A stretch of DNA of 36,315 nucleotides from an uncultured Geobacteraceae bacterium (lineage in GTDB: Bacteria; Desulfobacterota; Desulfuromonadia; Geobacterales; CAIOGM01). Positions 3,142 to 11,587 of the stretch are shown one piece after another. The stretch is taken from positions 1 through 36,315 of the forward strand of contig CAIUUR010000415.1 of the NCBI GenBank assembly GCA_903902345.1. Reading direction: 5' to 3'. The position numbers were made by a program, and so were the translations under genes. Position 1 is the stretch's first letter. Every line of letters starts with the position of its first letter. The notes under the pieces are model-generated. The model did no database searches. It had not been told where the DNA came from and saw only the letters and a list, made by a program, of their open reading frames with translations.

Positions 3142-3255
3142 CTACTCCCCCTCCTCTTTCTCGAACTTCCCTTTTTCCTGACACTGGGGGCATTTCTGGG
3201 GCTTGCAGCGCCCCTCCTTGGTATAACCGCACGCAGCGCATTTCCAGTTTGCCAT
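3142..3255 (-). CDS. 37-residue RCKP-type rubredoxin-like zinc/iron ribbon protein
   Basis: A very small gene encoding a protein that starts MANWKCAACGYTKEG, continues RCKPQKCPQCQEKG and ends in an acidic/lysine tail. Two C-x2-C knuckles (C6/C9 and C21/C24) can bind one Zn or Fe, as in rubredoxin. The RCKP sequence between them matches a family of short rubredoxin-like proteins common in anaerobic Desulfuromonadota (family assignment from memory). An excellent AGGAGG site lies 8 nt before the ATG and the codons are in frame to a TAG. The role is unknown; electron transfer or metal binding in oxidative-stress protection is conceivable. It stands alone between the kinase promoter and the dctA control region. 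Confidence 0.85.
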   Translation of the reverse strand: MANWKCAACGYTKEGRCKPQKCPQCQEKGKFEKEEGE

Positions 3256-3473: not shown

Positions 3474-3517
3474 AGGGGTATAACCGGAGTTATGGTCATA
3501 ACTCCGGTTATACCCCT
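3474..3517. promoter_or_regulatory. 44-bp perfect palindrome holding two ATAAC-N4-GTTAT operators
   Basis: Two 21-bp arms (3474-3494 and 3497-3517) are exact inverted repeats around a 2-bp centre. Each arm contains its own smaller palindrome, ATAAC-N4-GTTAT (3480-3493 and 3498-3511, 18 bp apart). A third copy lies 68 bp downstream. The position, roughly 150-180 bp upstream of a -24/-12 promoter, is typical of an upstream activator sequence for a sigma-54 enhancer-binding protein. It has no T-run, so it is unlikely to be a terminator. Confidence 0.75.
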
Positions 3518-3565
3518 ATAACACATTGCATTTCTGATAGTTACATCATATCAGAGAATCGGCGA

Positions 3566-3579
3566 ATAACCCCGGTTAT
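3566..3579. promoter_or_regulatory. Third ATAAC-N4-GTTAT operator copy upstream of dctA
   Basis: The sequence ATAACCCCGGTTAT repeats the core palindrome found twice in 3474-3517, and the following TATGACCAT also resembles the flank of that palindrome. It lies about 80 bp upstream of the -24 element. The remaining DNA from 3256 to 3759 is AT-rich and contains no gene that I can support. Confidence 0.65.
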
Positions 3580-3654
3580 GACCATTTATCGTAACTTCTT
3601 TTTCACAAAGACGAATTATCACATAATATCGCAAAAATACAAAAAATCCATTTC

Positions 3655-3670
3655 TGGCATCTCGTTTGCT
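3655..3670 (+). promoter_or_regulatory. Sigma-54 (-24/-12) promoter of dctA
   Basis: TGGCAT-N5-TTGC: the invariant GG (3656-3657) and GC (3668-3669) are spaced exactly as in RpoN promoters (consensus TGGCAC-N5-TTGC, one mismatch). Transcription would start near 3681, about 79 nt before the dctA ATG. The upstream operator triplet supports control by an enhancer-binding protein that is not encoded in this window. Confidence 0.7.
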
Positions 3671-3759
3671 TACGGTACGGTTATCCTGAAAACAAACAGT
3701 ATCTCTTTTTAACACATCCATCACCGTCAACCGGCTGCGCCACCAACGAGGAGAACGTC

Positions 3760-6861: not shown

Positions 6862-8067
6862 TTACCGGCTGAGCAATTGTTGCAGAGTCTCTAGATAGGC
6901 GCGTATACCCATTGCGGTCACCCCACGGCAGAGAGGGCGTTGCCCGTCGGCCAGGCAGAGGAGCAGCCCCTCTTCGGGTTCACTCTTTTCAAACAGGGAT
7001 CGGAAACGGACCAGGCCGGAAGCCAGGGATGCAGTCGGTGTCCTGCTTAACTTTATCTCCACCGGCAACGGCCGCAGGTTTCGCCCTTCAATGATCAGAT
7101 CAACTTCCAGGCCGTTGTTGGTCCTGAGGTACGAGATCTGTGGTTGCCGGCCATGATTGGCGTAGGATTTGACCGTTTCCTGAATGCAATAATTTTCGAA
7201 CAACGCCCCCGACATCGGCCCTTCCAGCAATTGTTCCCGGTCACGCACCCCCGCAAGGTGACACGCCAGGCCGGTATCAAGAAAATAGACCTTGGGCATT
7301 TTGGTTATCCGCTTACCCAGATTATTGAAGTAGGGAGACAACAGGTAAATGATTCGACCGGCCTCCAGAACAGAGAGCCATCGCTTGATGGTGGGAACGC
7401 TCACCCCCAGATCCGTGGCAAATGAGCTCATGTTCAGCATCTGACTGCAGCGGATCGCCAGAAGCTGCATGAACCGGTGGAACTCACGCAAACTGCCGAT
7501 ATCGTAGAGACTGCGGATGTCCCTTTCGAGGTAGGTCTGGATATACGATGAATACCAGAGCCGCCGGTCGATCTTCGGTGTGGTGGCAAGCTGTGGGTAG
7601 GCGCCGGTCAGACAGGTCGTGGCAAAGAGTTCCATGCCGCTATCCATCGGCGTAACCTGTTGCAACTCGGAAGCAGCGAAGGGGAGGAGATCCAGCAGAG
7701 CGATCCTGCCGGCCAGGGAGTCGCCAAGGTTACGGATCATGCCGAACTGCTGGGAACCGGTAAAGACGAAGCTTCCATTCCGGCTTCGATCATCATCCAC
7801 TCGCATCTTCACATGAGAGAGAATGCCGGGGGCAAGTTGAATCTCGTCGATAATGCTGCGTCCACCAAGGGAGTCCAGGAAATAGACTGGATCAGTGTGC
7901 GCCAATTGAAGCACTGCCGGATCGTCCAGCGACGTGTAGTGGTACTCCGGCAGAGCGTGACGCAGAAGTGTCGATTTTCCGGACTGTCGTGGACCGGTAA
8001 CAGCCATACAGGGAAAGGTGTCAAGAATACCTGGAAGCAGGCTTTTGATGCTGCGTGGAATGTACAT
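6862..8067 (-). CDS. AAA ATPase with C-terminal DUF4143 domain
   Basis: A 401-residue protein with a Walker A motif GPRQSGKST (25-33) and a Walker B-like IIDEIQLAP (72-80), the signature of the AAA_14 group. The C-terminal half has the DUF4143 pattern, with a helical linker, KVYFLDTGLACHLAG, and a restriction-endonuclease-like stretch (NGLEVDLIIEG ... PVEIKLSRTP) with D, E and K residues of a PD-(D/E)xK fold. These proteins are abundant and mobile in bacteria and archaea, and their role is not established; ATP-dependent nucleic acid handling is a common guess. It is a single gene, transcribed towards the riboswitch, with no partner gene, so context adds nothing. The ATG at 8067 is supported by the conserved IPRSI beginning. 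Confidence 0.85.
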   Translation of the reverse strand: MYIPRSIKSLLPGILDTFPCMAVTGPRQSGKSTLLRHALPEYHYTSLDDPAVLQLAHTDPVYFLDSLGGRSIIDEIQLAPGILSHVKMRVDDDRSRNGSFVFTGSQQFGMIRNLGDSLAGRIALLDLLPFAASELQQVTPMDSGMELFATTCLTGAYPQLATTPKIDRRLWYSSYIQTYLERDIRSLYDIGSLREFHRFMQLLAIRCSQMLNMSSFATDLGVSVPTIKRWLSVLEAGRIIYLLSPYFNNLGKRITKMPKVYFLDTGLACHLAGVRDREQLLEGPMSGALFENYCIQETVKSYANHGRQPQISYLRTNNGLEVDLIIEGRNLRPLPVEIKLSRTPTASLASGLVRFRSLFEKSEPEEGLLLCLADGQRPLCRGVTAMGIRAYLETLQQLLSR

Positions 8068-8163
8068 GAATCTATGATAGGAGCGGGACCGGAGGGTGTC
8101 AATACATATTTAACATGGCAAGTTATATCTGTATCGCACTTAGAACTAATGGGTTTAAAGAAA

Positions 8164-8254
8164 TACTCAACAACATCTTAACAACTTCGAAGCCTGACCC
8201 GGCACCTTACTCAACAACATCTTAACAACTTCGAAGCCTGACCCGGCACCTTAC
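8164..8254. repeat. 44-bp tandem duplication
   Basis: The 44-bp unit at 8167-8210 is repeated exactly at 8211-8254, and the 3 bp before the first copy match as well. The unit ends in GCCTGACCCGGCACCTTAC. On the minus strand the second copy encodes the last residues and stop codon of the truncated receiver gene. CCTGACCC-type motifs recur at the edges of REP/RAYT-like relics in this group (from memory), so it may mark an old element end. Confidence 0.85.
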
Positions 8255-8705
8255 GACACCTACGGGCGTTCACTTCCATGCCGTTAAACGGCTTGGCGAT
8301 GTAATCCACGGCCCCCGCGGCGAATCCGTCGGCGATTTCCTGATGACTCTCCCCGGAGATAAGGAGAATCACCGGAATTCGGGCCGTGGCGGGATTTTGT
8401 GCAAGAATGCGGCAGAAGTTAACGCCATCCGTTTCCGCAGCAAGGAGAATGAGGTCCGGCCGGAAATCAAGAGCCAGTTTCAGTGCGGAGACCACGTCGG
8501 TGGCGGCCAGGCAGTTCTGCTCCTCCGGCAGCATCCCGCTCAAGAGCATGATGCCGGCCGGCTCATGATCTACGATAAGAATAGCGCCGACGGAGTCGAG
8601 ATCGTTCCTCTGCTCCATGGTTACGGGGAGATTCGATTGGGCGAATGGCAACGGCTCCCGGCAGGATGATTCTGACGGAGTAAGCAGGTTGTGATCAATG
8701 GTCAT
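8211..8705 (-). CDS. Truncated receiver-like protein lacking the phosphoacceptor Asp
   Basis: A 164-residue open frame with a receiver fold (AILIVDHEPAGIMLL, about 42-56; ALKLALDFRPDLILLAAE; AGAVDYIAKPF near 135-145). The segment that should read LLLDxxMP is LILLAAETDG, so the phosphoryl-accepting Asp is replaced by Ala and about three residues are missing. VDHE replaces the usual VDDE. After KPFNGMEVNAR the sequence becomes RRCRKVPGQASKLLRCC, encoded by the 44-bp duplication, and stops at once, so the normal output or histidine kinase part is lost. It is probably a decayed gene, though a pseudo-receiver with a protein-binding role cannot be excluded. The exact start is uncertain; an internal Met near residue 30 is an alternative. 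Confidence 0.6.
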   Translation of the reverse strand: MTIDHNLLTPSESSCREPLPFAQSNLPVTMEQRNDLDSVGAILIVDHEPAGIMLLSGMLPEEQNCLAATDVVSALKLALDFRPDLILLAAETDGVNFCRILAQNPATARIPVILLISGESHQEIADGFAAGAVDYIAKPFNGMEVNARRCRKVPGQASKLLRCC

Positions 8706-8783
8706 CGATTTAACCTTTTACAGTTGGCCCCATGGTCATGACGGTAGAGTATCGGTTTGTGCGCCGCCGCAGTCGACAGGCTG

Positions 8784-9689
8784 CTAGTGAGGCGCGGGAA
8801 GATTGAGCAGCATGTTCCCCCCCCCCATGACCCCCGGCATCTTGCCGTCCCACTTGGCAATCTGCTGCCGCATGATCTGAAGTTTTTCCCACTCCAGCAG
8901 CTTAGGGTCCAGGGAGGAGGCCAACGCCCGGTTGGCGGCAGCCTCGCCGTTGGCGATGGCTATCTTCTTCTTCGCCTCCGCCTCTGCCTGGCGAACTTCA
9001 TTCTCCACCTGAATGCTCTTTTGAATCGCCTGGGTCTTGGAGTTCACCGCTTCCAGGAGAGCCTTGGGGGGGCGAAGACTCCCGATGAGGCCGAACTGCT
9101 GGACGACGATGCCATAGGACTTGACGTTTTCCCCCAGCTCTTTACCGACTTTTGCCAGGAATTCCTCCTTCCTGGCGCCGTTTATGTCGTCAAAGGTATA
9201 TTCGGAACCGATCTGCGCCACGATATTCCTGGTCGTATCCCGCAAGAAACCATGGGTGAACGTGTCGATCTGATCCGCGCGAAACTTCGTGTAAAACTCC
9301 GGGACGCGGGATGACTCCAACTGGTAACTGACGGCCACGTCAATATCCACGGGAACGGAATCCTTCGTGTTGAAGGTCAGTTGCTCGTTCCTCGCCGTTC
9401 CTTCATGAACATCCTGGGTCCAGGCAACCCGCTGGATAAAGGTGGGATAAACCACGACGGTGGACTGGATCGGATTGTAGAAGACGAACCCGGTGACGAT
9501 ATCTTCCCGGGTCACGCCGCGGTTGATGAGACGATTGATCTTGATCCCCGTGTACCCCGGCTCGATGACCCGCCAATTGATAAGCGATCCCTTGGCAATG
9601 GGGACGACAAACAAGAGTAGCAGGAGAATAAAGATCCATTTCCCCTGCCCCTTCAATAAATCCATTCCCCGTTGAACATTCTGATCCAT
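8784..9689 (-). CDS. SPFH/prohibitin-family membrane protein
   Basis: A 301-residue protein with a short cytoplasmic N-terminus, one hydrophobic anchor (about residues 18-36, WIFILLLLLFVVPIAKG) and an SPFH/Band-7 domain (about 36-210). A charged Ala/Glu-rich coiled coil follows (NEVRQAEAEAKKKIAIANG, about 228-246), with a hydrophobic C-terminus. This is the layout of prohibitin/HflK/HflC proteins, which form large ring assemblies at the inner membrane and modulate proteases such as FtsH. No partner (NfeD, HflK or a protease) lies next to it. GGGAGGAT precedes the ATG. The specific role is not deducible. Confidence 0.88.
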   Translation of the reverse strand: MDQNVQRGMDLLKGQGKWIFILLLLLFVVPIAKGSLINWRVIEPGYTGIKINRLINRGVTREDIVTGFVFYNPIQSTVVVYPTFIQRVAWTQDVHEGTARNEQLTFNTKDSVPVDIDVAVSYQLESSRVPEFYTKFRADQIDTFTHGFLRDTTRNIVAQIGSEYTFDDINGARKEEFLAKVGKELGENVKSYGIVVQQFGLIGSLRPPKALLEAVNSKTQAIQKSIQVENEVRQAEAEAKKKIAIANGEAAANRALASSLDPKLLEWEKLQIMRQQIAKWDGKMPGVMGGGNMLLNLPAPH

Positions 9690-9962
9690 TCTGTATCCTC
9701 CCTTTCCGGTTATTTCAGTATTCCTGAAAAAAGCAGTTAAACTATTCGAAGCTGTTTGAGATTATTTTCAGTCACTCCGTGGCGGACTACATTTCCCGGA
9801 GTAACCCGTTGATTCTCGCGCCGACTGCGGTACAAAGTCAATTATTCTAATATAAACAGGGTGACAACCCATAAAAAAAAATGCGATAATTCTCAAAATA
9901 CTTGTATTTTGTACAATACTGTTCTTGAAGGTCACTATCCCAACTGCCGGGCACGTAAAAGC

Positions 9963-10557
9963 ATGGTAGCAAACTCCAGCGAAATAATTCAGACAATCAT
10001 GCCCGACGCCGTGCCCCTTGTTTCTGTGGTCGTTCCGGTTTTCAATGACGCCGGGTCGTTGACGACGTGCTTGCAAGCTCTGGAGCATCAGAGCTATCCC
10101 AAAAATTCATTCGAGATTTCGTCGTGGATAACGGCTCGGACCCGGGACACGACAGAGGGGAAATCGTGTCCCACTTCGGACAGGCACGAATGATTCATGA
10201 ACCTCTCCCTGGCTCCTATGCCGCTCGCAACCAGGGGTTGTCTCAGGCAAGGGGTAATATTGTTGCATTTACCGATGCGGATTGCATCCCCAATCCCGAC
10301 TGGATCGAAAAAGGGGTGCGAACTTTGCAAAAATTCCCGGAGTGCGGTCTGGTGGCGGGAAAGTTCGGGACGTAATCGCCGATTGTCTCCCGCCTGTGAG
10401 GTTTGCCTACCATGCATTTTTCGACTCTTCATTGCCCGGGGGAGATCAAAAATTGAAAGTTTGCCTCATCATGTTTTTTGTGAGATATGTGGGTCTCTGG
10501 GAAAAGCTGAGACTCAAATCGGGAATCGGTGGCGCTGAATACAGGCAAATCAGATGA
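9963..10557 (+). pseudogene. Glycosyltransferase family 2 pseudogene
   Basis: A GT-A glycosyltransferase is readable only by switching frames. Frame one gives PLVSVVVPVFNDAGSL and ends in SYPKNSFEI. Loss of one base near 10118 then shifts to frame two, which gives VVDNGSDPG, GSYAARNQGLSQARG and the metal-binding AFTDADCIPNPDW, followed by a premature TAA at about 10375. A third frame from about 10350 carries a C-terminal-like segment (RYVGLWEKLRLKSG) up to 10557. The whole is shorter than an intact member (about 300 residues), so an internal deletion is likely at the second junction. The gene is AT-richer upstream than its neighbours and isolated from other glycan genes. Confidence 0.8.
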
Positions 10558-10651
10558 GTTTTGCACCTGTGACCTGTCCCCCTTTCGGCTCCTTATCCGA
10601 CTTCTTTCATCCCGACGATGGAGCCTTCTCCTCTCGTGATAACCGTAAAAG

Positions 10652-11587
10652 CTACCGAGGGCCGAGAAAACGATCACCGTTGAAATGGATCATATGTTCC
10701 GGAATATCCGCCATCCAGACCTCCGTGTCCCATGCGATGTCTTTCATATGCTTGCGGAATTCAGCAAAATCAGGAAAAGCCGAAACAAATATCAGCCCAC
10801 ACGCTTTGCAGCCGGCAAACATTTCCTTCAATTCGATTACTCGCTTGGGAGTCATGGGGCCATGGGACGTTACAGCCTCAATCAGATAGACCCACCGTCG
10901 ACCGGAATCGTAGAGAACAACATCAGGCAGCTTGTCATGGTTTAGTTCAATGCCAAGTTCGGTAATGACTGTCTCGTTTAGGTAGAGCAGCTTATCAGCC
11001 GTATCCCCGACATATACCAGTTCTGCCCCGTGGGCAAAGGTGGCGGCAAACTGGTTGATGATAGCAACCTGAACCTCATTATGTGCTCCGGGAGACAACC
11101 TGACTTCGGTTCCGTCAGGAAGCAACAGGGGGATGGTATGCAGTCCCCGTGCAATGGCATAGGCTTCGGTGAGCAAACCGACGTTTTCAGCCCACGTCCT
11201 GACGGCTACGGCCCAACCCGGGGTTCCGTATGTCCTGATTACAGTAATCGCCTCGTCGGTAATTTTATAATGTGCTCGGGGAGAGTTGGTCGGAAGGTCG
11301 GGAATATCCGGATTGTAATCAATGAGGCGAGCTTGCATGAACTGATGCAGGAATTGACGACGGAATGTTTCGCGGGTATTCGGAGCGTACGCTTTGTTGT
11401 ACGTATCCCGCAACCAGTCCATTATATCTTTTGTTACCCTTTTGCTAACTCTTGTGGCATCCGCCCACCTGCCATTTTTAGATATTTCACAAAGCGCCAG
11501 CAGAGTGTAACAGGATATCTCATTTTGCTGTGCGGGCGGTAATCCCAGCGCCCGAAGGATTGCTTGCGCATCGTGTAGCTTTGTCAA
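10652..11587 (-). CDS. Type II restriction endonuclease, BsuBI/PstI family
   Basis: A 311-residue protein close in size to R.PstI. The C-terminal half shows the family pattern: LPDVVLYDSGRRW (220-232) leading to YLIEAVTSHGPMTPKR (234-249), then LIFVSAFPDF. An N-terminal helical domain starts DAQAILRALGLPPAQQNE. Asp222 and Glu237 are candidate metal ligands of a PD-(D/E)xK-like centre. The start is a TTG at 11585-11587, supported by GGGGAGG six bases upstream, and overlaps the 3' end of the methyltransferase gene by 68 bp in another frame, so the nuclease is probably translated after the methylase. By family, the expected target is CTGCAG, but specificity is not proven. The left flank abuts a gene remnant, consistent with a transferred unit. 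Confidence 0.85.
   Translation of the reverse strand: MTKLHDAQAILRALGLPPAQQNEISCYTLLALCEISKNGRWADATRVSKRVTKDIMDWLRDTYNKAYAPNTRETFRRQFLHQFMQARLIDYNPDIPDLPTNSPRAHYKITDEAITVIRTYGTPGWAVAVRTWAENVGLLTEAYAIARGLHTIPLLLPDGTEVRLSPGAHNEVQVAIINQFAATFAHGAELVYVGDTADKLLYLNETVITELGIELNHDKLPDVVLYDSGRRWVYLIEAVTSHGPMTPKRVIELKEMFAGCKACGLIFVSAFPDFAEFRKHMKDIAWDTEVWMADIPEHMIHFNGDRFLGPR

Follow-up and report, generated by a model that had tools for sequence, protein, structure and literature searches.

We propose that dctA in an uncultured Geobacteraceae bacterium would be activated in a sigma-54-dependent manner by a remote two-component system with an SBP-type sensor, encoded on contig C290 of the same genome, through a three-site upstream activating sequence, and we place the probability of this reading at roughly 0.85. 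The stretch of DNA analysed here, called the window, is 36,315 nucleotides long (contig CAIUUR010000415.1, assembly GCA_903902345.1) and belongs to a genome (G000) assembled in 568 contigs, with 98.1% completeness and 4.3% contamination.

Operator Sites and Promoter Upstream of dctA

The region preceding dctA carries three copies of ATAAC-N4-GTTAT and a -24/-12 element (Table 1). Allowing one mismatch at most, the motif is found five times in the window, as against 0.26 on average, and never more than 2, in shuffled sequences. The original prediction had placed two such sites within an inverted repeat, a third copy 68 bp downstream, and a TGGCAT-N5-TTGC element with exact sigma-54 spacing beyond them, and all three held: site 3 starts 68 bp after site 2, and the element has the GG-N10-GC spacing. 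The same prediction described the repeat as a perfect 44-bp palindrome, which needs correction, as its two central positions (GT) are unpaired.

The element TGGCATCTCGTTTGC fits the sigma-54 consensus (TGGYRY-N4/5-TTGC, GG-N10-GC) and is conserved in register, and the three sites, held at fixed spacing, fall within the ~80–200 bp from the start that characterise sigma-54 activator sites. The first site lies 174–175 bp from the -24 element, the value depending on the counting convention. RpoN is encoded in the window genome (TIGR02395, 442.5 bits, above the cut-off). Nothing unusual was found in the structure of the predicted dctA leader RNA, and no IHF consensus lies between operator and promoter in the promoters scanned.

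Two further features were observed on the minus strand of the window: at 978–2905, genes for a GAF-containing histidine kinase and then a receiver-only response regulator, found beside dctA in G000, G002 and G003 and not in other genera; and at 3142–3255, an ORF of 37 aa whose four cysteines form CxxC pairs (MANWKCAACGYTKEGRCKPQKCPQCQEKGKFEKEEGE), which by eye resembles a rubredoxin-like zinc ribbon and has no Pfam match.

Table 1. Features of the dctA regulatory region and of the candidate regulator. Positions are those of the window unless a contig is named.
Feature	Position	Strand	Remarks
Operator site 1, ATAACCGGAGTTAT	3480–3493	n/a	Exact ATAAC-N4-GTTAT match; centre ~-194 from predicted start
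Operator site 2, ATAACTCCGGTTAT	3498–3511	n/a	Exact match; 4-bp linker from site 1
Operator site 3, ATAACCCCGGTTAT	3566–3579	n/a	Exact match; conserved part is the promoter-proximal half GTTAT(GACC)
Near-palindrome enclosing sites 1 and 2	3474–3517	n/a	42/44 positions
Sigma-54 -24/-12 element, TGGCATCTCGTTTGC	3655–3669	+	GG-N10-GC spacing; TGGYAT-N5-TTGC conserved at fixed distance in 50+ promoters
Predicted transcription start	3681	+	Placed from sigma-54 promoter geometry, ~12 nt past the -12 GC
Ribosome-binding site GAGGAG	3748–3753	+	From sequence
dctA, C4-dicarboxylate:cation symporter, 440 aa	3760–5082	+	Pfam SDF, E=9e-116; NCBIfam DctA models above cut-off
Histidine kinase, SBP_bac_3 sensor	G000 contig C290 (locus L066), 8936–10672	-	
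EBP, receiver-AAA+-Fis	G000 contig C290 (locus L066), 7521–8939	-	

Specificity and Conservation of the Operator

The exact 14-mer occurs seven times in the 4.9 Mb of the window genome: three times at dctA, three times within coding sequence (infB and the genes of an SDR and a chemotaxis receptor), and once near a restriction-modification gene. A pattern scan of this genome finds the operator combined with a -24/-12 element in the observed geometry only at dctA, and the operator therefore looks dedicated to that gene. The suggestion that the motif may define a regulon thus appears not to apply within the window genome, where dctA alone seems to be served; it stands at the level of the order, where paralogous systems (dctA, dcuB and NAD-glutamate dehydrogenase) use the same grammar.

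Among the 141 genomes of the order, 70 encode a full-length DctA and 63 contain the paired, abutting TAAC-N4-GTTA pattern, the reversed control giving none. After removal of two reverse-strand duplicates, 65 promoters were classified, and the gene downstream is dctA in 54 and dcuB in five, with two running off a contig end and four preceding other genes. The motif is conserved ahead of dctA orthologues, so the original prediction withstands its own refuting condition of random genomic positions without such conservation. The four other targets are NAD-glutamate dehydrogenase at three loci and an amino-acid-type ABC transporter ATPase at one (L097, L098, L135 and L134 taken together), which suggests a glutamate branch of the family.

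The layout varies little. The linker between the first two sites is 4 or 5 bp, the first site lies 175–184 bp upstream of the -24 TGG in 62 of 64 promoters, and the third site, a full palindrome in the window, is mostly reduced in relatives to the half GTTAT(ACC) (GTTATACC), at -83 to -79 from the -24 TGG. Just 15 of 64 promoters have a site 1 N4 that is fully reverse-complementary to the N4 of site 2, while the individual 14-mers persist; the conserved unit is each 14-mer and not the whole 44-bp palindrome. The two N4 spacers within one promoter are more similar than in shuffles, by a statistic that ignores kinship, and this similarity carries no weight in the present argument. In several genera a small ORF (MEWID..TPYEIFG..THWMPLP; L009, L011, L013, L017) separates dctA from the sigma-54 promoter; it is probably co-transcribed with dctA and leaves the enhancer–promoter geometry unaltered. 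In genus g13 another sigma-54 promoter is conserved, which combines TAACTTTCGTTA with a GTTATACC half-site downstream of it (G046 C1:201297, G047 C6:50841, G048 C2:45509 and others).

Of the 70 genomes encoding dctA, seven show no such operator in pattern searches, among them G007 and G032, which encode family EBPs of other types, so dctA can also be wired otherwise. A phylum-wide sample of 395 genomes yielded eight with the paired pattern, five of them order members already counted; of the remaining three, two come from a sister lineage within the class and adjoin an EBP of the same family, and the one that has no such neighbour is probably a chance match. Some 40 dctA loci, from Betaproteobacteria and a few others, show no paired site. 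Plasmid pGJ3-1 of Photobacterium sp. GJ3 (L250) carries a distant copy of the kinase/EBP pair, its EBP 61% identical, alongside an SDF-family transporter gene and another whose translation reads by eye as aspartate ammonia-lyase; half-sites are present there at a spacing that matches the Geobacterales layout, which suggests horizontal spread of the system beyond the order.

Operator Type and Enhancer-Binding Protein

In most relatives, dctA is directly preceded by genes for an SBP_bac_3-sensor histidine kinase and an NtrC-type enhancer-binding protein (EBP) of receiver-AAA+-Fis architecture, and an EBP of this family is encoded upstream, on the same stretch, at 58 of the 65 promoters. Comparing these proteins with their promoters, we distinguish three operator types:

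(i) ATAAC-N4-GTTAT, found at dctA and some dcuB genes, accompanies EBPs with 447T and 457Q (40 of 40).

(ii) TTAAC-N4-GTTAA, found at dctA in parts of three genera, accompanies EBPs with 445V/G, 447A and 457A/P/G (11 of 11). The change from ATAAC to TTAAC goes with the recognition-helix differences N445V, T447A, Q457A/P/G and S461N.

(iii) ATAAC-N5-GTTAT, found at most dcuB genes, lies in the EBP–dcuB intergenic region with the same three-site layout, a 5-bp spacer and a -24/-12 element (L146, L147, L151, L155, L156, L157, L160). N4 and N5 EBPs have a recognition helix in common; their differences lie in the dimer helix before it (L421F, R423E/D, E432A/G, L433F) and at other positions.

Operator type follows the EBP clade and not the host, and several genomes have more than one type, each beside a matching EBP (for example G038, G029, G018 and G004). 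This amounts to a strong association between EBP sequence and operator type rather than replicated co-evolution, because each switch of type occurs only once on the EBP tree. Tentatively, and at somewhat less than even odds, these differences may reflect a two-part DNA code in which recognition-helix residues would decide between ATAAC and TTAAC at the outer base and Fis-type dimer-helix residues would set the spacer (4 bp at dctA, 5 bp at dcuB), so keeping paralogous systems apart.

A Remote Kinase/EBP Pair as the Candidate Regulator

The window contains no kinase/EBP pair of the SBP_bac_3 family, and its local response regulator has no DNA-binding domain, in agreement with the earlier statement that the regulator is not encoded there. 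A whole-genome search of G000 recovers a single family EBP, on contig C290, where it is encoded with its kinase and is 71% identical to a dctA-adjacent EBP. In a tree built without the DNA-binding helix, it groups with the dctA-adjacent EBP of the congener G001 (SH-aLRT 100). The orphan locus on C290 is syntenic in the congeners G001–G003, and G001 has both a copy of this locus and a dctA-adjacent EBP copy. The C290 EBP carries the ATAAC/N4 residue set, matching the window, with T in place of the usual R at residue 423. The system shows the features of the dctA branch of a Geobacterales family, namely an SBP-sensor histidine kinase with an NtrC-type EBP, an ATAAC-N4-GTTAT triple site, a sigma-54 promoter and a dctA or dcuB target, the pair here being remote from dctA.

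As the EBP gene does not adjoin dctA in the window genome, the link between the two rests on orthology and elimination, and a different EBP could in principle bind the sites, the C290 pair serving another target. A search with S. meliloti DctD finds 23 AAA+ regulators in the genome, and a second family EBP could be missing from an assembly as fragmented and incomplete as this one. We nevertheless consider a different EBP unlikely: no other EBP of the genome exceeds 42% identity to the family query, full-length ones reach at most 38% (the next best 36–38%), the C290 EBP is of the ATAAC-N4 type by its recognition- and dimer-helix residues, and no operator was found at the C290 locus itself. The C290 pair is most likely the regulator of the window dctA.

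Proposed Mechanism

Under C290 control, activation of dctA may proceed as follows. The kinase would sense a periplasmic C4-dicarboxylate, or a related acid (aspartate, for example), through its SBP_bac_3 domain, a ligand proposed solely from the targets of the family, and would phosphorylate the EBP. EBP dimers would then occupy the two abutting sites at about -194 and -176, together with the proximal site or half-site at about -108, and the resulting oligomer would loop to a closed RNAP–sigma-54 complex on TGGCAT-N5-TTGC, where ATP hydrolysis by the EBP would drive transcription, presumably as activation rather than repression. Support from sequence extends to the sites, their spacing and conservation, the EBP–operator association and the presence of RpoN. 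Control of a sigma-54 dctA promoter by an EBP through a non-DctD operator, as first proposed, is consistent with all the comparative evidence.

Perfect palindromes are also typical of repressor sites, and the operator might instead belong to a repressor or a sigma-70-type regulator, the -24/-12 match being fortuitous. We regard this as quite improbable: the sites lie 76–175 bp upstream of the -24/-12 element, too far for simple repression, that distance is fixed in dozens of genomes, and the adjacent gene encodes an EBP at 58 of 65 promoters. Control by the local kinase/receiver pair is more improbable still. It is the regulatory pair nearest to dctA and keeps that position in G002 and G003, but its response regulator consists of a receiver without an AAA+ or DNA-binding domain, its kinase carries GAF domains but lacks an SBP sensor, and the pair is missing beside dctA in other genera, which retain the operator; for want of an output domain it was rejected. 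The chance that the 44-bp repeat acts as a DNA or RNA hairpin (terminator, cruciform or attenuator) is negligible despite its 42/44 symmetry in the window, and the terminator and cruciform readings were rejected, since the whole symmetry is seldom conserved (15/64) while the 14-mers are, the repeat lies upstream of the promoter, the adjoining gene reads away from it, and there is no T run.

Comparison with Known C4-Dicarboxylate Systems

The C290 system, acting on dctA as we propose, invites comparison with DctB/DctD of Rhizobium and Sinorhizobium, which likewise pairs a kinase with an NtrC-type EBP, a sigma-54 promoter, at least two upstream binding sites and a dctA target (PMC11077940; S. 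meliloti locus L251). Three differences separate them. The DctD operator is of the type TGTGCG-N5-CCGCACA (PMC11077940), whereas that of the window is ATAAC-N4-GTTAT; read by eye, the region upstream of the window dctA lacks the DctD operator, which is present upstream of S. meliloti dctA as a control. The sensor of DctB is dCache_1 (slightly under the Pfam cut-off in the S. meliloti kinase), whereas that of the C290 kinase is SBP_bac_3. The C290 EBP is 35% identical to DctD and comes 20th of the 23 in a reciprocal search with S. meliloti DctD, 19 other EBPs of the window genome matching better, and DctD orthology was rejected on both counts. Judged by EBP orthology, sensor domain and operator alike, the window system would work like DctB/DctD but is not of that family.

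Further parallels are found within Geobacter. The dcuB gene of G. sulfurreducens (GSU2751) has a paralogous kinase/EBP pair, with the EBP gene upstream, and an RpoN-dependent promoter mapped by primer extension (PMC2725144). The dcuB promoters of relatives share the three-site layout of the window dctA and differ in their 5-bp spacer, ATAAC-N5-GTTAT, and in their target, a fumarate/succinate exchanger. No operator description for the G. sulfurreducens dcuB promoter was found in the literature searched. In G. bemidjiensis, the order kinase, response regulator, dctA (Gbem_3228/3227/3225) was noted in 2010, and 65–69% is given between paralogous regulators; the available part of that account covers genes only (PMC2996986). 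The pair stands beside dctA in G. bemidjiensis, a place that it has left in the window genome. No description of an ATAAC-N4-GTTAT operator was found in the freely accessible literature searched.

Significance

In Geobacter-like bacteria, which have numerous EBPs, the analysis assigns an operator and a likely activator to dicarboxylate uptake; in G. sulfurreducens, RpoN could not be deleted (PMC2725144). In the window genome the regulator appears to have left its target, yet EBP and operator have kept their match. The family also provides naturally occurring paralogues whose base preference and spacer length appear to be governed by separate protein residues. If the two-part code is true, the dctA, dcuB and glutamate-catabolism circuits would be insulated from one another despite near-identical recognition helices.
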